From Hypomesus transpacificus (lineage: Eukaryota > Chordata > Actinopteri > Osmeriformes > Osmeridae), in contig NC_061068.1 in assembly GCF_021917145.1 (NCBI RefSeq), positions 10,238,975-10,302,974 of the forward strand: DNA of 64,000 nt, read 5' to 3'. This document shows positions 30,847 to 58,581 of the stretch, one piece after another. A program made the position numbers and the translations under genes. Position 1 is the stretch's first letter. Each line of letters begins with the position of its first letter. The notes beneath the pieces are model-generated. The model did not search any database. It saw nothing but the letters and a program-made list of their open reading frames with translations, and was not told the origin of the DNA.

Positions 30847-31537
30847 ATGTTTAACTCGGTAAATCTGGGCAACTTTTGCTCACAGACGCGAAAAGACAGG
30901 ACTTCCGAGTTCGGGGACAGAGCGAGCTGCGCGTCTAACCTATACCTCCCAAGCTGCACCTACTACGTCCCCGAATTTTCTGCTGTCTCCTCGTTTTTGC
31001 CACAGGCACAGTCACGGCAAATAACCTATCCTTACTCAACAAACCTCTCACAAGTGCAACCGGTACGGGACGTTTCCTACGGTTTGGACCCTTCAAGTAA
31101 GTGGCACCACAGAGGGAACTATGCGCCCTGCTACTCAGGGGAGGAATTGGTACACAGAGACTGCCTTCCGCCATCGTCCACCATGACAGAAATGCTGATG
31201 AAAAACGAGAGTGTGTACAGCCATCACCATCACCCTGGCTCCAACCACCCTTCCACTGGCTTCTACTCGGGTGTTGGAAAAAACAATGTTCTTCCACAAG
31301 GCTTTGACCGCTTTTTCGAAAGCACACACTGTGGAGCGGAAAATAGCTCACCAGAGAACTGTGCCCCGAAGGGCGACTCCAGTAAGCTCGATTCGGCGTC
31401 CCAGGCGCCTGCCGCCCTCCCCAGCGCCGCAGATCAGGAGAAAGACCCAGAGGATGAGGAAGAAAACACAAATTCTGGTTCTTGTGCTTCCTCATCGGGT
31501 ACGAAGGAGGACAACGCCAGCAAAACCAACCACTCGA
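30847..31537 (+). CDS. hoxc11a: Hoxc11a, exon 1 (N-terminal region)
   Basis: N-terminal exon of the Hoxc11 homeodomain transcription factor, which acts in the posterior trunk, tail and appendages of vertebrates. It starts [20 protein letters not shown] and continues with the Hox11 hallmark [16 protein letters not shown] His-rich run ([12 protein letters not shown]) and an acidic stretch ([11 protein letters not shown]) precede a Ser-rich end. Exon 1 gives 230 residues plus one base. The donor is ctcga|gtaggt, chosen because it joins in phase 1 with the acceptor to give [17 protein letters not shown]; the nearby ag|gtatcg would shift the frame. Full length is 307 residues, normal for Hoxc11. 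Confidence 0.95.
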
Positions 31538-32670
31538 GTAGGTATCGAAGCTGTAAATGGGGAAAAGGTTAAGGGACTAGCCCGGTGTTTTGTCGGTCAG
31601 ATTTTATGTGGAGTTTTATAAGCATTCAAAGGATTTTATTATAACCTACAAAGCTCTTTCTTCCAACAAGAAGAATTTTTACGATGGGAAAAGACTTTGA
31701 AAAAACGATATGTTACACTCAAGCGCAGCTATTCCAGTCTGTGAAAGTTTAAGAGCGCGCTATTGTGACAAATGCTAACTTTGATCATGAACTTGCTCTG
31801 TTTTAAGGGATGTTTCGTCAGCCTGTCAAGTGTAAAAAGCAATTGGGCAGAACACTGCTTTTGGGCGTATGTGATTTAAGTAGTCTCTGCATCCTGCATG
31901 GGTGAGCATTGGGTGAACGCTGATTTGGACGATCAGATCATTGTTATAAAAAAATATTTAGTGTTTTAAAAAGCATTCTGCTCAAAATGCACATGGACAC
32001 TCCAAAAAGTACACTGGTTTGGAGGTTTGCAATTCAAAAATTGTATTAGAAATGTGATGAATATGAAATAAAGAGTTAGGCTTTTGGCTACTTCTATCTA
32101 ATCAACAACTATCAAAATTAGGCTATTCTTCTTTAGGTTAATTCATGGTATATAGCCTGCGGTAATTGCACGCAGCCTACCGAACACTGATAACCTACAG
32201 AAACTATTATCTCCCTGCGCTAAGCAGGCCCAAGCGCTCTTAAAGGTGTTTGTTGATTCATATTTGTGTCACCTAATCAGTATAAAATCTTTCACGGGTT
32301 AGTTAGCTACAATCATAACATTAGATGAATACTGTAACATCAAGTTACATAATATAGTCGTAATTCCTATGTTAATGTGTTTCTAGATGGGGCTGTAAGC
32401 AGTCAATATCTCCTAGAGATAAGTGAAAAAAGGTTTGCAATAAGATGCTATTTATTTACGACGACAAAAAACGTAATGTGCTGATGTTACTGCGTGTTAA
32501 AAACATGTTGTAGACAACACCATCCCAATCATTTCATGAATTGTTTTGAATTCTTACACGTTGATCACGTTGGCCCAGTATACGTTAGGGTTTGCTTGTG
32601 AAATACAATTTGATCATAATTCAGTCTCAATTCAATCATAATTCTCTGGTTTTTCCACTATCACCCTAAG
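31538..32670 (+). other. hoxc11a intron
   Basis: Phase-1 intron of 1133 bp, donor gtaggt and acceptor caccctaag. It is AT-rich with no recognisable gene or repeat insertion. The intron-side open frame that reads out of exon 1 ([10 protein letters not shown]) is not coding. Confidence 0.8.
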
Positions 32671-32903
32671 GTACTCCACGTACAAGAAAGAAGAGATGTC
32701 CATACACGAAGTTCCAGATTCGAGAATTGGAAAGAGAGTTCTTCTTTAATGTTTATATCAACAAAGAGAAACGGCTTCAGCTCTCCAGAATGCTAAACCT
32801 AACTGATCGTCAGGTCAAGATATGGTTCCAGAATCGCCGAATGAAAGAAAAGAAGTTAAGCCGAGATCGCCTGCAATACTTTTCTGGCAATCCTTTACTG
32901 TGA
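32671..32903 (+). CDS. hoxc11a: Hoxc11a, exon 2 (homeodomain)
   Basis: This exon is too short for a long open frame but clear by homology. It completes the Ser codon and reads [20 protein letters not shown], then [20 protein letters not shown]. The recognition helix is [16 protein letters not shown]. The homeodomain is residues 235-294, with Trp48, Phe49, Asn51 and Arg53 intact. The C-terminus [13 protein letters not shown] is the Hox11 signature, followed by TGA at 32901-32903. The gene is intact. Confidence 0.97.
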
Positions 32904-36838: not shown

Positions 36839-37439
36839 CTGAGGAACGTTATATCCAGTTTGAATGAAATAACAAAAGGTTTTAGTGAAACCACATTTGT
36901 CTATTATCAGTACGAATAATTATGTAAATTAGGCTACTGTAGTGGGTTCTACTCTAACAAGACATTGAAATATACCATTTCATTATTTAATTATAGGCTG
37001 TTTATAGGCTAATAGTTATGATTCAAATGGAAAATATGGCTGCTGGTCAACGAAGTCAATTCAAAACTAATTAAATACAAAATATTAAATATTTAAAATA
37101 ATCTATATCTCTTAATACCTTTTTGAGTCTAACGGCTTCAGTAGCCTATGATATGCGTCCTAATTTTAATTGTACAATATCTAGGAGAAGATTATTACAT
37201 TTTATAATAGCCGTCTATTATCATGTTATCATGTTAACTTCAGCCTAAAGGCTAAGTAGGTTTGCATTGTAAACGTTTGACTGGACAAACGGTTTAGGCA
37301 GTCAGACAAAGTATAAGCCTACTTTTAGTCCATGGAAAACGATGGACGTGTTCTGTTAGATAGTCACTACAAAACAAGGAAATACCACAATCAATAGGCA
37401 AACCATTGTCTGCTTCCCTTTTTGCATTTTTTGTGTATT

Positions 37440-37645
37440 CACAGCTGGTTTTCACAAGATGGCTGTTGTTGCGATGTTATTCCTGCTAGATGGCGTCCCT
37501 CACCATGATATTGCCAAAACTTGACCTCATTGTCGTCACTAAGTCTGGTGCGCCAAGGCCACATTCAATCTCCGATTGGTCTCAAAGTCACGTGGTATGG
37601 TTCTTGCTCCATTGAGTTGGTGTTTTGTGGTCCACCCCCGTCTCA
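37440..37645 (+). promoter_or_regulatory. Orphan Hox-promoter-like patch, probably former hoxc10a promoter
   Basis: A GC-richer island in AT-rich spacer, with an inverted CCAAT box (gattgg at 37574-37579) 10 bp before an E-box (cacgtgg at 37589-37595). The intact hoxc9a promoter carries the same pair, CACGTGG and CCAAT, in a different order. No gene follows directly. The decayed Hox10-like homeobox lies about 1.9 kb downstream, a normal distance from promoter to second exon. I infer that this is the remaining hoxc10a promoter, or an element that regulates neighbouring genes; exon 1 itself is not recognisable. Confidence 0.4.
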
Positions 37646-39514
37646 AATATCATAAGATAATAATCTTCGTAAAGGACTCAGTAAAGTTTATATCTCAATT
37701 AAATAAATGCTAAAATACATTGCTTGCACATTTCATGTAAACCAATTGTAAAGAGGATTATCCGCGTGCAAGAAGATTTTAGTTTACTCCGAAATTTGCG
37801 ACAGAGTAGAATGTTTGATGCATAAGAATGATGGAATTGCGTCTTCACCCTCTCAAAATGGAAGCATAATCTCAGACAAAAGGGACAAAATATATGTATA
37901 TATATATACATGTATGTAGCCTATCCCATTTTGCAAATGCCGATGTCCGACCGTTTGTCTGTTTTTCCATCATGTCGATAGTTAGTTCCACGTCCTGAAG
38001 ATAAAAAGAGGACTGAGACAGGACAATGTCGAATACATGTCGTTTTAAAAACTGTATCTTCGACTGGATTGCTCGACGGAGAGTCAGAGATAGCATGCAA
38101 AGGAGAGTGGACGCGGATGTCAGTTAAATTTCTAAACATGCACACAAAATCCTGAGTCGTTATAACTTGGATGTATACCGATAAGGACTCCTTTTCTTGC
38201 AGAAACCGTAAAGTAATATCTTCCTAAAACTGACATAATTCAAACAGGGATGTTAAAGGTAACCACACTCACACATCCACGCACAAGTACGATATTCATC
38301 AAATACAAATTAATTATGAGTTTATCATCATATCCTTTATCATTATATAGAATTTATGGTTCGTTTGGATAGGCTTTATATTTCGAGTTCCATTGATGAA
38401 TGTCTTTGTCAGTTTTATTCTAAAATTGTTGTGGAGAAAGTTCAAGCTGTTATGATACTTTTGCATTCTTTGTATTTTCTATTGTGCAATCCCAGCCATT
38501 TTCTTGTATTTGTTTTCAAGTGATCATTGTAGGTCTTTTCCAAAATAAGGGAAGCCTAAAAGTGCTTTATTAGTAGAAACATCAGTAAATTGTGTTTGCG
38601 TCAGATTGAAATAATGTCTGCACACATCATTTAGGCCTATGCGGCAGCTGTCTTTATAGTGGCTTCTTGGTGTTGGCTACATCGTAATGTGGTAACACAT
38701 TTAGTAAATGATAGCATGTTAATTCTAATAGACGCAAACCTTTTAAAATAGGCTATTATAACATGTAAAGCACAATGAACGCATAATTAGCCTTTTAATA
38801 GTCAAACATAACCCATAATTCAAAATGAGATTTTGAGCCTAAATAATAGTTTTAAAGGTCAATAATTATTGTCCTCTAATTAAAAATCAACTAGTTGGTG
38901 ATACTAAACGACATTTGCAAGAATGTATTCGAGACTGATGTTTGTAAAAGAAAACAAGGGCCCAAGTTGTATGCGGGCTCTCTCTCTTACTGGCTATTTT
39001 ATTGATAACGGTCCGGTTGTTTGCAAACAAGCATGAAACAACCTAAAACGAAACTGCAATAGTTAAGCCACAAGCAGCTAGTTCGTCTGTTGCAAGATAC
39101 CTATTTCCGAATTGTTTTCTCAAAATGTGAAATAAGTATTTAACAGACTGACACAATTGTGTTCTATGTAGCTTGTATGGAACATATCGACAGAGTTTAC
39201 ATAGCATTGGCCTAGTATACACAACATTACCCACAGAGGAACTAACTCTGCAACGTTGTATTCATATAGAATTCAGCTATTTCGTTTTGATCGAAATGCA
39301 AATAAGGATTATTTGTTTATCGACTCAGGTAGTTAATTTCAATATAGATTATGTTGTTTGAAGCCAATGGTTATTTAACCTACATTATTAATATATGGAG
39401 AACTATTCTAAAAAATACTTTAGACCTACATAATATATCAATTTTGTAACCCATTTTCTGTTTTGATAATTCCACGATTTTGTTAAATTTTCAGGGGACA
39501 TGCAGTAGGCATAC
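37646..39514. other. Expected hoxc10a exon 1/intron region, not recognisable
   Basis: Between the orphan promoter-like patch and the decayed homeobox I searched all frames for Hox10 N-terminal hallmarks and found none. A TA-rich microsatellite lies near 37891-37915. The open frames here are short and unrelated to Hox. Confidence 0.5.
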
Positions 39515-39770
39515 TGTACAACTAGTTGGAGAAGGCCGGTGAAAATGGGCTCGCGGCGAGAAGTGGACGGTCCCGATACAAAACCGGCAATGGAGCTATT
39601 GTTGTGGAATTCTATCGTATTTGACTCGAGAGCGCCACCTGGAGATACGATATGGTGTAAATGTATCTGACACATGACAAAACCAGGTTCCAGAATCGAC
39701 GTACAAAGCTGAAGATATTTAACAGGATTTTGTCTATGTCTATTTATCGAACCACTCACTGTGCTGTGAG
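39515..39770 (+). pseudogene. hoxc10a: Decayed hoxc10a homeobox (exon 2 remnant)
   Basis: Where hoxc10a belongs, between hoxc11a and miR-196a/hoxc9a, the + strand keeps a damaged Hox10-type homeobox. Frames read (A)RSGR near 39556-39570, a fragment matching the start of the Hox10 homeodomain. LTRERHLEI follows at 39621-39647, against LTRERRLEI in Hox10. It continues in frame as RYGVNVSDT, then TGA at 39675-39677 where Hox10 has Gln. FQNRRTKLK at 39688-39714 matches FQNRRMKLK. Damage: about 7 bases missing between EF (39607-39612) and LTRER, the premature stop, and a 2-base deletion that removes the Trp48 codon and shifts frame before FQNRR. The Hox10 C-terminal tail is not readable. It cannot make a functional homeodomain. 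Assignment to Hox10 rests on position plus LTRER and RRxKLK; other groups differ at these sites. Confidence 0.85.
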
Positions 39771-41210
39771 GAATATCACATAAAGGAAAAGTGGCATAAT
39801 CAAGAGGGCTAACATGAGAGATCACACATGCTGGTCATTTAAAACATATTGGTAGGTCACAAAATATAGACTACCTTACAGCCTTAAATGTTTCCAAAAC
39901 GTGACAGTTTGTATGAAAGATAACTGCAATGTGTGTTAATCAAGACTTTTGTTTTAGAATTGTGTCGTTACTGTCACTTATTATACTGTTCCAAATGCGA
40001 TTATTTGATGATGGTGAGATGTATTCCGATACATTTATGTAGCTAATATGTTGTATTTGGACTCAAATCTATCTTAAGGAAGACTAAAGACACAAGTTCA
40101 TCAAGAAATTAAACGGATACTGAGGCATCATTTTTCTTTGTGTCCTCTCCCTTCGTGTCCTTTGGCTATGACTTGCCATATGGGATGACTGGGTGTGTAG
40201 GGTAGTTTCAATGGAAAGACAACCAGAACGGTGATTTAAATATTAGCCAGGTGACCACAATAAGTCAAAGTCATAAAATTGTAATGTCAGGATGGATGCA
40301 GTGTAGCGCCTGAAGTGGGTTTTATGATCTTCAAATATAATGTGCGTTGCCGCAGTTAGAAGCGTAAAAGGTGACGAGGAGGAGGTCTACACCGATGTTG
40401 CCGCGGGCTACCATGGGTCGGCTTCAGCTGTAGTGTGCGAACGCTCTTTTCCTGGAAAGAAAACCAACATTTTGGATCATGTATAGAAAAAAGATTACAA
40501 GGAAAGGAAATCACATGTATAATGGAGCAGTATCAATGTTAAGAAGGTCCCCGTAGTTGCAAGACGAGGTAGGACTTACCCCTTTTTTTCTTTGCTTTGA
40601 ACAAGATGATGTCTCGTGCTGGTATATTTAGAAATGTTTTAACTGGAATCATAATAAACAATTATTTCTACTGAATTTTCTATGTATTTATAGAACTGTG
40701 TTTTAGATTTGTACGGCATTAGGCCTATAGCAATGCACTAGGCGATGTTGCACGAGCGGTGATTTCGGATTATTTGTGACATCTCTCCTTCATGCGCAAT
40801 ATAATTTAGCCAAAATACATTATTGTTGTACACCTGCACAAAAAGTCAGTGATTGGTTTATTGTAGATTAATTTCACAAATTAAAAACTATGATCGCCTC
40901 GTCATTACTGGACTGCTCACATTGACATGAAAGGTATCGCCATGTGCATGTTCTTATAGGGACTGTAAAGGTAAACGGCTAAACTGTGCAAGGTTAATAA
41001 AGGAGTCTGTTGGCATGTACTTGTTATTGGTGTGGCATGTCACCAATGCAGTGGGCTACGGAAGCATCGTAGGATTTAAAATTGGGATGAACTGGCTACA
41101 AAACATATATCAAGCCTATACTATCTTCTAATTCTCCCATTAAATTAATTTCGATTCAGGAAGCCCATCAGAAATTGCATACACTGATTACGCAGTTGTC
41201 CCCTAAAGTT
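39771..41210. other. Spacer between hoxc10a remnant and miR-196a
   Basis: No coding exon. A GC-richer block at about 40300-40450 (including gttgccgcagttagaag and ttgccgcgggctaccatggg) stands out from AT-rich flanks. It could be conserved regulatory DNA or an exon of the miR-196a primary transcript; neither can be shown here. Confidence 0.45.
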
Positions 41211-41211
41211 C

Positions 41212-41296
41212 AGCTGATGCGTGGTTTAGGTAGTTTCATGTTGTTGGGATGGACTTCCTGGCTCGGCAACAAGAAACTGCCTTGATTACGTCAGTT
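41212..41296 (+). ncRNA. mir196a: miR-196a precursor hairpin
   Basis: The 5' arm contains the exact mature miR-196a, taggtagtttcatgttgttg followed by gg, at 41227-41248. The 3' arm contains cggcaacaagaaactgcctt (41264-41283), the conserved star sequence, which pairs with the mature strand apart from one internal mismatch and G:U pairs. The loop is atggacttcctggct. The flanks (ctgatg... and ...cgtcag) extend the stem. Location between Hox10 and Hox9 is the ancestral position of mir-196 in HoxC. miR-196 represses Hox8-group and other Hox mRNAs, and matching sites are present in hoxc8a downstream. Confidence 0.97.
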
Positions 41297-45209: not shown

Positions 45210-45732
45210 ATGTCAACCACGGGTCCCATGAGCACTTATTATGTGGATTCTCTCATCAGTCACGAAAGCGAGGATGTGCAGCTGGCGTCGCGGTTATCTG
45301 TTCCCGAGCTTCTTCCCAGTGGTTCTTGTCCGACGACACTAGTTCCAGAGTGCTCAGACTTTTCATCCTGTAGTTTTGCTCCAAAACCGACTGTCTTTAC
45401 CTCGTCCTGGCACCCTGTTCACTCTCAATCTTCGGTGGTCTATCACCCATATACCCATCAACCGCAGATTGGGACGGACTCGAGGTATGTTCGGTCATGG
45501 TTGGAGCCAATATCGGGGACAGTATCCTTTCCAAGCTACCCGGTAAACACCTTTGGGCTGAAAACCGAACATCTCACGGCCGGTGATTGCTTTGCTTCCA
45601 GTGCACGAGGATATCCGGACTATTTCTACAACTCGCCCGTCCGAGATAAGACACAGCAGAACATCCCTTCTCCGGAGCTGGACGTTTCGGCACCCACGAA
45701 GCACAAAGACGACAAACCAGAATTAAACCCGG
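45210..45732 (+). CDS. hoxc9a: Hoxc9a, exon 1 (N-terminal region)
   Basis: N-terminal exon of Hoxc9, a trunk-level homeodomain transcription factor known in vertebrates to shape thoracic motor-neuron identity. It opens MSTTGPMSTYYVDSLISHES, the Hox9 signature, and keeps CSFAPKPTVFTSSWHPVHSQ, YHPYTHQPQIG, YVRSWLEPISG and YPDYFYNSP. It encodes 174 residues plus one base. The donor is ccgg|gtaagt, phase 1, completing Asp (PELNPDNPVINW). Full length is 255 residues, typical of Hoxc9. The open frame continues into the intron as GKWQPS, which is excluded. Confidence 0.96.
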
Positions 45733-46953
45733 GTAAGTGGCAGCCAAGTCCGTTTATTAGGCTACTTTATATCGTTTCGCGTGTGATGTCCATCCTTATT
45801 ACAACAACATTATCTACGTTCTCTTATTTTTAACAAGTGTATTTAGGTGCTGTGTGACAGTGTTAGTAAACACAAACGCCAATCCCGGCAAGGTTGTAAA
45901 AAAAACTAGAAGCTGTAAAAGAGCTATAAAATGAGGGCATTTCTGTAAACAAGTTTCACATCGCCTAGTCAATGACCAATACAGATTTCAAAGACTCCAC
46001 ACCGGCTTATCTTCATATTTGTTCAAGTTTATTACCTTTAGGTGGCCTAATACATGTTTTGAATTTGGCTTTACATGAGCTGTGGTTTAGTGTAGGCTAA
46101 CCCTAAGGTGCGGCTAGTGCCACGATGGATAGGCAAACAAACCCTTCTAGTTCTATTTGAAAACGTAGCCTATGTTGCATGTTAAAGTCGTGTTAAATGT
46201 GACACAGTGTGAAATTAGGCATTTGGCCTCGGCCGACCGTCCAATTATTGTTAAACAGTAGCCTATAGACGTGCTTTTACTGTCGACTATCAACATAGGT
46301 TAAGATCAGATAATCATTTGAATTTACATTTACTCATTTACTCATTTACTCATTTAGCAGACGCTCTTATCCAGAGTGACTTCCAGGGATATCCCCCGAG
46401 GCAAGTAGGGTTAATGCATGAGGTGCCTTGCACAAGGGCACAACGTCATTTAGCGTAGCCGGGAATCGAACCGGCAACCTTCTGATTAATAGCCCGAGTC
46501 CCTAACCGCTCAGCCATCTGATCCCCACGAATCATGGACTACATTGCTTCTAATTGGGAAAAATGACACATGCCAACACATAGCAATGTCAGAGCGAAGC
46601 ATCTAGCTGCGTCGGTCGCAGACCTGCACAGACACGAAGCCAAAGGCTTTTAAAATATTTTATGAGCCAATAAAGCAAATGGCACACTCACCAGTTTACG
46701 ACGCTGTGCCTTGCTAGCCACAGGTGATGATTCTAAAGATGATCGGAGTATTTTACGATTATATACAGGTTGTAGGCCAATCAGTGTGTTCCCATAGATT
46801 AGGTAGTTTCACCTGATTGGAAATCATGGTAGGCTAATGATTTCTATTTTTGTCAGAATGTGTAGCCTGTGAATGTGTAAAGCTAAATGTTTACCTATTT
46901 CTTGGCCTAAGCGTATAGGCTACTTTAATGGTGTTCTTTTCCCCATTTTATAG
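45733..46953 (+). other. hoxc9a intron
   Basis: Phase-1 intron of 1221 bp with a consensus gtaagt donor and acceptor ccccattttatag. A nearly full-length tRNA-derived SINE sits antisense in its middle (46322-46526). Confidence 0.9.
46322..46526 (-). mobile_element. tRNA-derived SINE, near full length, in the hoxc9a intron
   Basis: Read on the - strand: A box gatggctgagcggttaggga, B box gccggttcgattcccggcta, body with gacgttgtgcccttgtgcaa, and tail ctctggataagagcgtctgc ending in three aaatgagt units. The head resembles tRNA-Leu/Ser. A roughly 205-bp copy, the longest in the window together with the 58.0 kb copy. The repeated tail units may be where the target-site duplication and tail expansion merge. 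Confidence 0.85.
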
Positions 46954-47198
46954 ACAATCCGGTCATTAATTGGATACATGCAAGGTCAACAAGGAAGAAG
47001 AGGTGTCCTTATACAAAATATCAGACGCTTGAGCTGGAAAAAGAGTTTTTGTTTAATACGTATCTTACTAGGGATCAACGATACGAGGTGGCACGGGTTT
47101 TGAATCTGACCGAAAGACAAGTCAAGATATGGTTTCAGAATCGTCGAATGAAAATGAAGAAGATGAATAAAGAGAAGACGGAGACCAATGAGCAGTAA
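46954..47198 (+). CDS. hoxc9a: Hoxc9a, exon 2 (homeodomain)
   Basis: Reads [20 protein letters not shown]. The NW motif before the homeodomain is the reduced Pbx-binding tryptophan motif of Hox9 (usually ANWIHA). The homeodomain is residues 187-246, with [20 protein letters not shown] and [16 protein letters not shown]; Trp48, Phe49, Asn51 and Arg53 are intact. The tail is KEKTETNEQ, before TAA at 47196-47198. Compared with typical Hoxc9, LTRDRR has become LTRDQR and NMY is NTY; otherwise it is conserved. Confidence 0.97.
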
Positions 47199-49431: not shown

Positions 49432-49995
49432 AAATAACCTTGTTCATCTATAGGCTAAAGAAAGTAGGCCTACAGTAGAATCAGATCAAGAATTGGAAGC
49501 ATTTCTACAGTTTTTCGATAGTCAGAGTATATGAACAGTCATTTTTCACAAGCCACATCGCAAAGTATCTCTGCTACAAGGCACAGTGAAGAAAAAATGT
49601 TAGCACAATATCTCAATTGCTTAAAGAGTAGGCCTAACAAGAACAAATAACTAGAACAAATAATGGACCTATCACTACCAGCCACTTAAACCGTTATTTT
49701 GATCCTTTTTAAATTTTCAATAAGAAGTTTACGACTAGTTTTAGCTACAATAATAACTGTAAACAATGTTGAGATGTAACAAATTAGATGTAGCCTACAA
49801 GAGACGACGTGAGGAATTGTCATCAAGTGATGGCCGTTTTCTTGGCTAATTCACGTCATTTTGATATGTTATAGTATAAAAGCCTATATAGTCTATCTTT
49901 AAATAAGTGATACTTTGTCTTGATTTCATAGAGGGATAGGCTACATGGCTTGGACAGAATGTTTAGATGGATAATATTGCAATTTTAATGCACAG

Positions 49996-50281
49996 GGGTG
50001 CGTTTCCCGAAAGCATCGTAAGCCTAAGTTGATCGTAGAGTCCATCGTACGATGGATCTTAATTGTACGGGCCGTTTCCCGAAACCATCGTAGCTAAAGA
50101 GGCACTTGAAAATCGTCGTAGATCAACAAGAGCTCCAGGGGTGCGTTTCCCGAAAGCATCGTAAGCCTAAGTTGATCGTAGAGTCCATCGTACGATGGAT
50201 CTTAGTTGTACGGGCCGTTTCCCGAAACCATCGTAGCTAAAGAGGCACTTGAAAATCGTCGTAGATCAACAAGAGCTCCAG
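49996..50281. repeat. 143-bp tandem duplication of the Harbinger left end
   Basis: The segment beginning gggtgcgtttcccgaaagca recurs 143 bp downstream (49996 and 50139), both copies running to gatcaacaagagctccag. I see a single difference (cttaattgtacg versus cttagttgtacg), so the duplication is recent relative to the rest of the element. It duplicates the terminal repeat and puts an internal copy of it in direct orientation. Confidence 0.9.
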
Positions 50282-50948
50282 ACCAGTCGTAGATCGCTAA
50301 GTGCATCGTAGCACAGAGACTCAGTGGAGACACGCGTAGGCCGACCATGAAAACTACATTAAACTCATGCTGAAAGTTACTTCCGATGGAAAATAAGATT
50401 TTTCTGATTCTCTTTTTACGCCAGTTACGCTGGAACTGGAATATTTCTTAGTGAACCATACAAGTTTAACTGCCGAAAAAATATCAGAATCCGGTTTATC
50501 CTCAAGTAAATTTAGGTTACACAAAATAATTTGATTTAGTGGGTTTGGCGCATGCAATGAAGGTATTTAAAAAACAAATGTCAGTCTTATTCAAAATACT
50601 ATAACATTGAAATATGGCTGTTGTAATGTGCAATAGAAACTAGAAATGCATTAACGTAACGCTTTTACGAGTACAATAACACAACAACAATTGAACATTG
50701 AAGATGTTTATTAGAATTATAGGGCTGGTAGCACGCCAAGCCCGGTGGATGAAGAGGCCGGTGGCAGAGCCGAGCCTGATGTTAGGAGATGGTGGCGCCC
50801 AGGAAATGGAAAGACTCCACAGGGTTGACTACGAAGTCACACAGGGTGAAGGGGCTGGGAGGGAGTGAAAACTCGTACGAAAATCATAAAAGCCATTGAA
50901 GATAGCCTAAGTCCTGCACTGCAGACTTGTCCCCTCTGATATGGGGAA

Positions 50949-51170
50949 TTAGATGTGGTCTGGGATGTGGCAAAGTAATCCAGTTGTGACAGCCTGCACA
51001 GATCTTGACACTGAGGCCTTGGCGAGCCCATGTCCATCTCCAATAACCTCCAGAAAACTGCCAATGGCATAGAACCTTAACACTGCCAGTAGTTGGGTTA
51101 CAGGGGTCAGTGCAAAGGACCTCCTTGTTAGCCTCTGCAGGTCTGCTTCTATGTGGTTCAGGAGCATCAT
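50949..51170 (-). pseudogene. HARBI1-like transposase fragment
   Basis: A 73-codon open frame on the - strand reading RRSFALTPVTQLLAVLRFYA, then IGSFLEVIGDGHGLAKASVS and RSVQAVTTGLL. This matches the N-terminal helix-turn-helix segment typical of PIF/Harbinger (HARBI1) transposases, LTP..QLL..LRFYATG.F..v.GD..GlS.atvSR. The following - strand frames show IFNGFYDF-like sequence with shifts, but the DDE catalytic part is not recognisable. It belongs to the surrounding transposon and is not a host gene. Confidence 0.8.
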
Positions 51171-52367
51171 GATATCATGATGTCATCTGAAATATCTTAC
51201 ACTCATAATGAGTATAATTGATCAACCATCAATTAAAGTAGAGTTGATTATTCATGTCAGAAACAATGATTCCATGTTGAAGACATGGGGTATTCATTAC
51301 TTATGTGTTTGTCATTTGTCACAATGTCATTTGTGGCCAATATGTGATAATTATGAGATTGCAAACATGGTCTTGGGAAGCTGTTGGCCTATGCAAGATT
51401 GTAGATATAGTCAGCACTAGAAAATAAGACAGTAAACATGTTGGATTGAGATGCTTGTATTTGTACATTGAATTGTTTAGGATGCTAGCTGGGACATGCC
51501 ATGTGTGATACCATTCATATGCATTGTTTTTAACCTTGTAGTTCAATCAAGTAGTAAATATAGGACTCATATATATATGCCTATGGAAAGTGGAGTACCA
51601 AGAAGAGTTAAAAACCAAGGCACAAGTAATTTGAGAAATAGTTGTTTTATGGGAGTTTTTTCTCCCTGCTCCTGCTCCTCACATGGATCTATAAGGTAAA
51701 CATGTAAGGATTGGACAGGCAACACTGAATATATGATACAATACACAATTCAGCCTTTACTTTAAATAAACATTGTATGCTTTAGGCTATAAGGTAACCT
51801 AAATGTGACACTACCTTGTTGATTGGGCAGAAGAATAGGCACAGAAATGGAGGGCCTTGTGAACTTCATCTCTTCAAACAAAAGCTTCCTCACCTCAATT
51901 TGGAGACGAGCCCACTTAATTTCCAATACCTCCTATTGGTATTTAGCATCCTGTGTCGCTGATTGCAAGGTCCTAACACCGGTGTAAAACTCAGATGCAG
52001 CATAGTTTGCACGTTCACCTTATTGTCTTTACCTTCATGTAGCATCACATTGAAAAGTACTCAAATAAGTAGCCTATAATAAATGTAAAGTTTTCTGTAG
52101 CTACAGAAAATATTTTTTTGTGTACCGTAATTCGTCAAATATTTTGGTTAACGTTTTAATTTTAAAGTCTTCAAGTTGCGTCAGAAGAATCACATTTCAG
52201 TACAATGGACAGCGTCTTGTTAAGTGCAACTTAAGAGATACGTACGATGGTTCTCCTTACGAGCATGTTCGGGAAACGCACGTAAGAAATAACGATGGAT
52301 CGTTATTTTCATCGTAGAGAACCCTCGTAACAGCTACGATCCATCGTTATCGGGAAACGCACCCCAG

Positions 52368-57717: not shown

Positions 57718-58581
57718 GGGCTGCGTATCCTGATAACGATTTATTTTCGATTTCACTCACGTTCCTAGGCTTACCTGTCTCCTAAGAATTAAGAACTACT
57801 TAAGATGCTTACCGGATGCGGAAATGTGATTGCAACTTCAAGAATTTCGTTAAATAATCACGGTAGGCTATTATTTAGCCCACTGTCGATACAGAAAACA
57901 TATCATTATTATCGTTTTTAATTTATATCGTAGGTTATGTGGTTAAAATAGTTCACATGGTCTAGGCATGCATATAACCTAGCAGGTGTCATTTACATTT
58001 AGTCATTTAGCAGACGCTCTTATCCAGAGCGTCTTACAGTAAGCACAGGAACATTCCCCCGAGGCAAGTGCCTTGCCCAAGGACACAACGTCATTTGGTA
58101 TCCCCGATCTGGCAACCTTCAGATTACTAGTCCGATTCCCTAACCGCTCAGCCATCTGACTCTCCTACACTGTCATGACTTTACAATCAGCGTTGCAGAT
58201 TTTGCATTCATGAAATGCATACGTAATTCACACACCATTTGATTAAAGACACGTGTAGCCTTTCACTGAAATATATCCCAGTTTCAGTTTAACTTCTGTA
58301 ATATATATATATATATATATGTAGCCTATATAAAAAAGCATTATCTTTTTTTCATCTCGAATCATATTTACGCATCCATGTAACTTTAGGATTGGCCTAC
58401 TGGTGTCTCCACTGAGTCTCTTTGCTTAAAATGCATTTAGCGATCTACGACTGCTCTGGAGCTCTTGTTAATCTACGAGCATTTTCAAGAGCCTCTTCGA
58501 TGGTTTTGGGAAACGGCTCGTAAAACTAAGATCCATCGTAGGATGGATTCGAGGTTTACAATGCTTTTGGAAAAGCAGCCC
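57718..58581. mobile_element. Non-autonomous Harbinger-like element, copy 2, with nested SINE
   Basis: Shares its interior with 47552-48343 (for example taacctagcaggtgtcat, gtttcagtttaacttctgta, tttttcatctcga, tggtgtctccactgagtctc) and ends gggctgcgtatcctgataac on the left and atgcttttggaaaagcagcc on the right. It is split by a SINE at 57991-58164; copy 1 shows the matching empty site near 47928-47945. Flanking CTG and CAG are consistent with the CWG target preference. An (AT)n run occurs near 58301-58320. Confidence 0.75.
57991..58164 (-). mobile_element. tRNA-derived SINE nested in a Harbinger-like element
   Basis: - strand: A box agatggctgagcggttaggg, a weak B box gttgccagatcggggatacc, body ttgggcaaggcacttgcctc and tail gctctggataagagcgtctg then ctaaatgactaaatgtaaat. 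The host element has gtgtcat on the left and ctgtcat on the right, a probable duplicated target. Confidence 0.85.

Follow-up and report, generated by a model that had tools for sequence, protein, structure and literature searches.

Decayed Hox duplicates in teleosts

Loss of hoxc10b has been described in ostariophysans, the lineage of zebrafish and catfish, in which the gene is reported to have vanished (PMC6173838). Decayed remnants of other duplicate Hox genes are known from further lineages: hoxa2a, hoxa7a and hoxa10a in zebrafish (PMC6173838), psi-hoxd2x and psi-hoxa13y in Pantodon (PMC4166920), and three Hox pseudogenes in the European eel (PMC3286462). Entire clusters have also been lost, namely HoxCb in pufferfish, medaka and cichlids (PMC4166920, PMC2080641) and HoxDb in the zebrafish and salmon lineages (PMC4166920). 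As far as the literature considered here goes, described clupeocephalans have at most seven Hox clusters, salmon's extra duplicates aside.

The window considered here is a stretch of 64,000 nucleotides from the osmerid smelt Hypomesus transpacificus (NC_061068.1, positions 10,238,975 to 10,302,974); all positions below refer to this stretch. We assign a feature within it to psi-hoxc10b, the decayed second Hoxc10 copy from the teleost genome duplication, located in the HoxCb cluster (probability about 0.95). The gene is the one lost in zebrafish and catfish, but in the smelt remnants of both exons are still readable.

The hoxc10b locus and its neighbourhood

The window represents a teleost HoxC cluster, with open frames for hoxc13, hoxc12, hoxc11, hoxc9 and hoxc8. 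The features of the locus are, in order:

30847..32903, + strand: intact two-exon hoxc11b (exon 1 starting at 30847, exon 2 at 32670-32903; Pfam DUF3528 and Homeodomain), which flanks the remnant on the 5' side and served to identify the cluster
37407..37721, + strand: putative promoter and 5' untranslated region, also conserved in the promoter of the intact hoxc10a (core 37518-37612)
37719..37721, + strand: start-codon position of the dead hoxc10b, reading ATT; 37721 is the last promoter-aligned base, and the following GCT TGC corresponds to A-C of MAC
37722..37889, + strand: what is left of the N-terminal portion of hoxc10b exon 1, identified by translated alignment to intact hoxc10b, with an in-frame TAA at 37749-37751
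39502..39726, + strand: what is left of hoxc10b exon 2, homeobox included
39618..39671, + strand: best-kept homeobox block 1, YLTRERHLEIRYGVNVSD, with the serine typical of hoxc10b, encoded by TCT at 39666
39679..39726, + strand: best-kept homeobox block 2, KTRFQNRRTKLKIFNR, in a frame other than that of block 1
40201..40389, + strand: conserved non-coding element downstream of the dead gene and ahead of miR-196, also present in the HoxCa cluster (77.8% over 194 columns, E 8e-33)
41218..41292, + strand: mir-196 precursor (Rfam RF00256, 84 bits)
45210..47198, + strand: hoxc9b, intact, two exons (Pfam Hox9_act and Homeodomain); the 3' neighbour

The locus is collinear with one on another chromosome of the same genome (C18), which harbors an intact hoxc10: both show the same succession of promoter core, exon 2, another conserved element and miR-196. 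The remnant lies between hoxc11 and miR-196/hoxc9, and the collinearity bears out its placement at the ancestral Hoxc10 position in the preliminary description of this DNA. Elsewhere in the window, between hoxc9b and hoxc8b and near a 143-base tandem repeat, open frames (at 50640-51182 on the - strand, and at 49993-50281) resemble what we take to be a decayed Harbinger-type transposase; a Pfam search of the open frames at 50640-51182 found nothing. An UnaL2 LINE 3' element (Rfam RF00436) is located at 57997-58050 on the - strand.

A broken group-10 homeobox

Alignment of the intact Hox10 exon 2 from C18 with positions 39400-39800 (Smith-Waterman) yields a score of 413 over 39502-39760. The corresponding 1000 dinucleotide shuffles have a mean of 206 (sd 18) and a maximum of 279, which rules out chance similarity as the source of the match. 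When the window is divided into 400-base tiles on both strands, only tiles with an intact homeobox rival the remnant, and the best other tile reaches 284. The exon is most similar to group 10: the scores of ten further HoxC exon 2 stretches against it run from 191 to 279, with c9b equal to the shuffle maximum (three of the ten slices are off the reading frame, which is immaterial to an alignment at the DNA level), and tblastn at the remnant gives an E-value of 4e-5 with a Hox10 homeodomain versus 0.035 with Hox9. Among the Hox10 exons of the different clusters, compared with a shorter query and for five of six exons (the C17 exon being left out), hoxc10a scores 354 and the four others 288-313.

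The motif LTRERHLEI (39621-39647) is followed by an in-frame TGA (39675-39677) and by FQNRRTKLK (39688-39714) in a different frame. Depending on the gap penalty, the alignment contains between 5 indels within the homeobox (+2, -11, -3, -7, -2; strictest penalty) and 16 over the whole of exon 2 (gentlest penalty). There is no open frame across the gene, and the remnant is predicted to make no homeodomain protein. An antisense stop-to-stop open frame of 143 codons (39403-39834, - strand) overlies the remnant, probably by chance. The preliminary description had already recognised a vestigial Hoxc10 at this site from the two motifs and the stop codon, all of which we find where it placed them; its assignment to group 10 and its account of several frame-breaking lesions hold as well. 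The two small deletions it noted (7 and 2 bases) are recovered by the gap alignment, together with an additional deletion of 11 bases.

Intact Hoxc10 relatives and a diagnostic serine

Intact counterparts of the dead gene exist in other teleosts. In a tree of Hoxc10 proteins (43 rows), the hoxc10b clade consists of six rows from Anguilla, Albula, Aldrovandia, Synaphobranchus, Megalops and Paramormyrops (support 100/98), whereas all 23 clupeocephalan rows, including the smelt's own, fall into one other clade, hoxc10a. The protein listings behind the Hoxc10 comparisons comprise the 120 best matches out of 3401 in one case and out of 4905 in the other, such that a clupeocephalan hoxc10b may exist beyond them. 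Elopomorph and Paramormyrops hoxc10b (P0245-P0248, P0251, P0253) derive from the same ancestral gene as the smelt copy and have the same homeodomain serine, but they are intact and the smelt copy is broken. Specifically, the homeodomain reads LSD in six of six intact hoxc10b proteins and LTD in all 125 other Hoxc10 proteins that fit the pattern (30 of 161 Hoxc10 proteins did not fit it and were dropped). The remnant reads VSD, and its serine agrees with hoxc10b at this one residue; being a single codon, it could also stem from a change during decay.

The smelt's hoxc10a on C18 (exon 2 at C18:11275386-11275634) is the paralogue from the teleost duplication, with a collinear locus and a conserved promoter. 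It differs from the dead copy in its open frame and in its location in HoxCa rather than HoxCb. The branch leading to the smelts within hoxc10a is long (0.26), and the surviving copy has therefore itself evolved quickly. Its exon 2 ends with RESRGRELTPVFNFS and contains YLSRERR.

Exon 1 and the putative promoter

More of the gene survives than the preliminary description had given, as the start of exon 1 can be made out as well. The translation from 37722 onward is similar to the N-terminus of intact hoxc10b, and this segment adjoins the 3' end of the promoter-like stretch shared with hoxc10a. Among 236 tiles between hoxc11 and hoxc9, the exon 1 tile, a location chosen for the tile and shuffle test after a tblastn match had indicated it, ranks first. 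Its mean score against four hoxc10b proteins is 37.75, above the shuffle maximum of 36.5 (0 of 1000 shuffles as good), and is driven largely by a single protein (55 for Megalops versus 31-34 for the other three). The tblastn search itself gave one match, likewise to Megalops, which is not significant (E 0.81). At the DNA level exon 1 is not alignable with hoxc10a (score 207 versus a shuffle mean of 172 and maximum of 250), and an alignment of the hoxc10b and hoxc10a introns scores under its null mean.

The stretch preceding exon 1 is more readily aligned. Positions 37407-37721 match the hoxc10a promoter with a local score of 349 (shuffle mean 144, sd 15, maximum 199), and blastn recovers the core with 75.5% identity over 98 columns (E 3e-11). 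When promoters are aligned globally, their percent identity is uninformative, with random pairs averaging 75%. Compared with its paralogue, the 320-base region ahead of the dead gene reaches a score of 341, while the same comparison for the living neighbours gives 234 (c8), 428 (c9), 481 (c13), 557 (c12) and 862 (c11). The start of exon 1, in contrast, scores 110 versus 461-839 in the living neighbours, and the homeobox 289 versus 538-669. The putative hoxc10b promoter thus looks better preserved than the coding sequence, although the contrast with exon 1 is weak because exon 1 of Hoxc10 changes rapidly in living genes as well.

The better-kept promoter may reflect a remaining role, as the start of a miR-196 host transcript or as an enhancer, or just a recent loss combined with the rapid change of Hoxc10 exon 1. 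Of the alternatives to a plain dead gene, a locus that would still be active is the one that survives best: the coding gene would be dead and its promoter kept, either to start a noncoding transcript into miR-196 or as an enhancer of hoxc9b or hoxc11b. The upstream score of 341 lies inside the living range of 234-862 and the scores of exon 1 and homeobox lie outside theirs; moreover, miR-196 is encoded on the same strand 3.5 kb downstream. On the other hand, 300 random pairs yielded scores of up to 408 (99th percentile 200), rapid exon 1 evolution is no mark of a dead gene, and a recent loss would likewise leave a readable promoter. On balance we consider continued activity unlikely. Its more far-reaching form, in which a Hox gene would have turned into the host of a regulatory RNA, with the promoter retained after death of the coding part as the start of a miR-196 noncoding transcript or as a cluster enhancer, is somewhat more doubtful again.

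Age of the loss

Within the two best-kept blocks, 8 of 50 sites at which every substitution would change an invariant residue are altered, or 7 of 48 if the LSD/LTD column is omitted. The latter fraction corresponds to about 0.16 changes per site (Jukes-Cantor formula). Neutral rates range from 3 to 10 per billion years, which puts the age of the remnant at roughly 15 to 55 million years. This value is a lower bound, since the blocks used are the readable ones. Such an age would suggest that hoxc10b was lost inside the smelt lineage, independently of the ostariophysans; an older loss, after which the remnant stayed under a degree of constraint, is also compatible with the estimate.

Cluster identity: HoxCb, not HoxCa

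The assignment to hoxc10b rather than hoxc10a depends on the identity of the cluster. The preliminary description had named the gene hoxc10a and placed it in hoxca, and regarded it as a normally kept Hox gene being lost. Position and group 10 agree with this reading, as do the database names of the nearest Hoxc11 relatives, which are C11a or C11a-like. The label is understandable because public annotations call these relatives 'Hox-C11a-like'. Counting against HoxCb, public names disagree: the eel C11a is found on the window side of the Hoxc11 tree and the eel C11b on the opposite side, and the proteins called Hox-C11a in Danio aesculapii and grass carp are on the window side, with a long branch.

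In the Hoxc11 tree (46 rows), the window groups with Osmerus, salmon, pike, herring, electric eel and others (12-row clade, support 99/96), while the C18 copy groups with cod, fugu (Takifugu), medaka (Oryzias), stickleback (Gasterosteus), catfishes and others (21 rows, 100/97). Pufferfish, medaka and cichlids have lost HoxCb, and the C18-side clade is therefore HoxCa; the window's hoxc11 falls opposite the neoteleost HoxCa genes, Hoxc11 being the one cluster gene on which the tree-based identity rests. Forcing the window and Osmerus into the C18-side clade costs 68 log units (p-AU 2e-15, for a grouping set after a first quick Hoxc11 tree was seen). Exon 1 of the window's hoxc11 is 97% identical to a protein of Osmerus eperlanus. 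The second HoxC cluster of the genome, on C18, comprises c13, c12, c11, c10, c9, c8, c6, c5 and c4 as well as two further homeobox exons, which we read as c3 and c1.

The co-occurrence of Hoxc11 and Hoxc10 on contigs provides independent support for HoxCb. On the HoxCa side, both genes are located on equally long contigs in 8 of 9 comparable species (Gadus, Lampris, Salminus, Silurus, Carassius, Triplophysa, Cololabis and Sebastes); the sole exception is Oncorhynchus keta, a member of the salmonids with their extra duplicates. On the window side, the contigs are unequally long in all four clupeocephalans (Esox, Electrophorus, Chanos and Dallia, the last placed on this side by the first quick tree). 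In Albula and Paramormyrops, hoxc10b is found on a contig as long as that of the window-type Hoxc11.

The search for Hox10 genes that might compensate for the loss, which the preliminary description had proposed, recovers six open homeodomain exons, on C18, C4, C2, C23, C12 and C17 (79-100% identity to the query). The copy on C18 is an open hoxc10a, 95% identical to Osmerus mordax Hox-C10a. Together with the Hoxc11 tree it leads us to reject a hoxc10a of HoxCa being lost in the smelt lineage, unless that tree misleads, and we regard this reading as very improbable. The name psi-hoxc10b follows from the HoxCb cluster, the open hoxc10a on C18 and the hoxc10b-type serine. Of the preliminary description, the dead group-10 homeobox, its position and its lesions are retained, whereas the gene and cluster names are replaced; the loss is also not that of a normally kept gene, as other teleosts are described as having lost hoxc10b (PMC6173838).

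A retrocopy or stray Hox10 fragment inserted at the locus is still less credible: promoter, exon 1 start, an intron-length gap, exon 2, conserved element and miR-196 are all collinear with the intact locus, and nothing was seen in its favour. Assembly errors in an intact hoxc10b can be dismissed to the same degree as the sole cause of the lesions, given that exon 1 is almost gone, that exon 2 has at least 5 indels, many substitutions and a stop, and that the neighbouring genes are open.

Implications for smelt Hox clusters

Since an intact hoxc10a is present on another chromosome and the remnant is the duplicate hoxc10b, the event is an ordinary loss of a spare copy, albeit one whose remnant is unusually legible. 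Presumably hoxc10b was dispensable, with hoxc10a and other group-10 genes covering its role; its coding sequence would then have decayed free of constraint, and some of the adjoining regulatory DNA and miR-196 would have stayed under selection. What comes in addition to the known loss of hoxc10b is a readable remnant, a promoter that has apparently outlived its gene, and the finding that elopomorphs and a mormyrid retain an intact hoxc10b.

The corrected identity matters, as otherwise the loss of a widely kept Hox gene would be reported in a fish that has it. The hoxc10b remnant in a euteleost can help to date the loss of the duplicate outside eels and bony tongues, and constitutes a small test of whether Hox promoters beside miR-196 outlive their genes. 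Homeodomain matches in the genome are found on C4, C2, C17, C13, C18, C9 (the contig of the window), C23 and C12, and point to an apparent total of eight Hox clusters (HoxA, HoxB, HoxC and HoxD in two copies each), as assigned by spacing and exon similarity only. One of these, a short cluster with a Hox10 gene at C12:6127311-6127565 whose exon 1 is hoxd10-like (L033), may be HoxDb. The smelt thus appears to retain two HoxC and two HoxD clusters and, if so, would be useful for the comparison of duplicated clusters.
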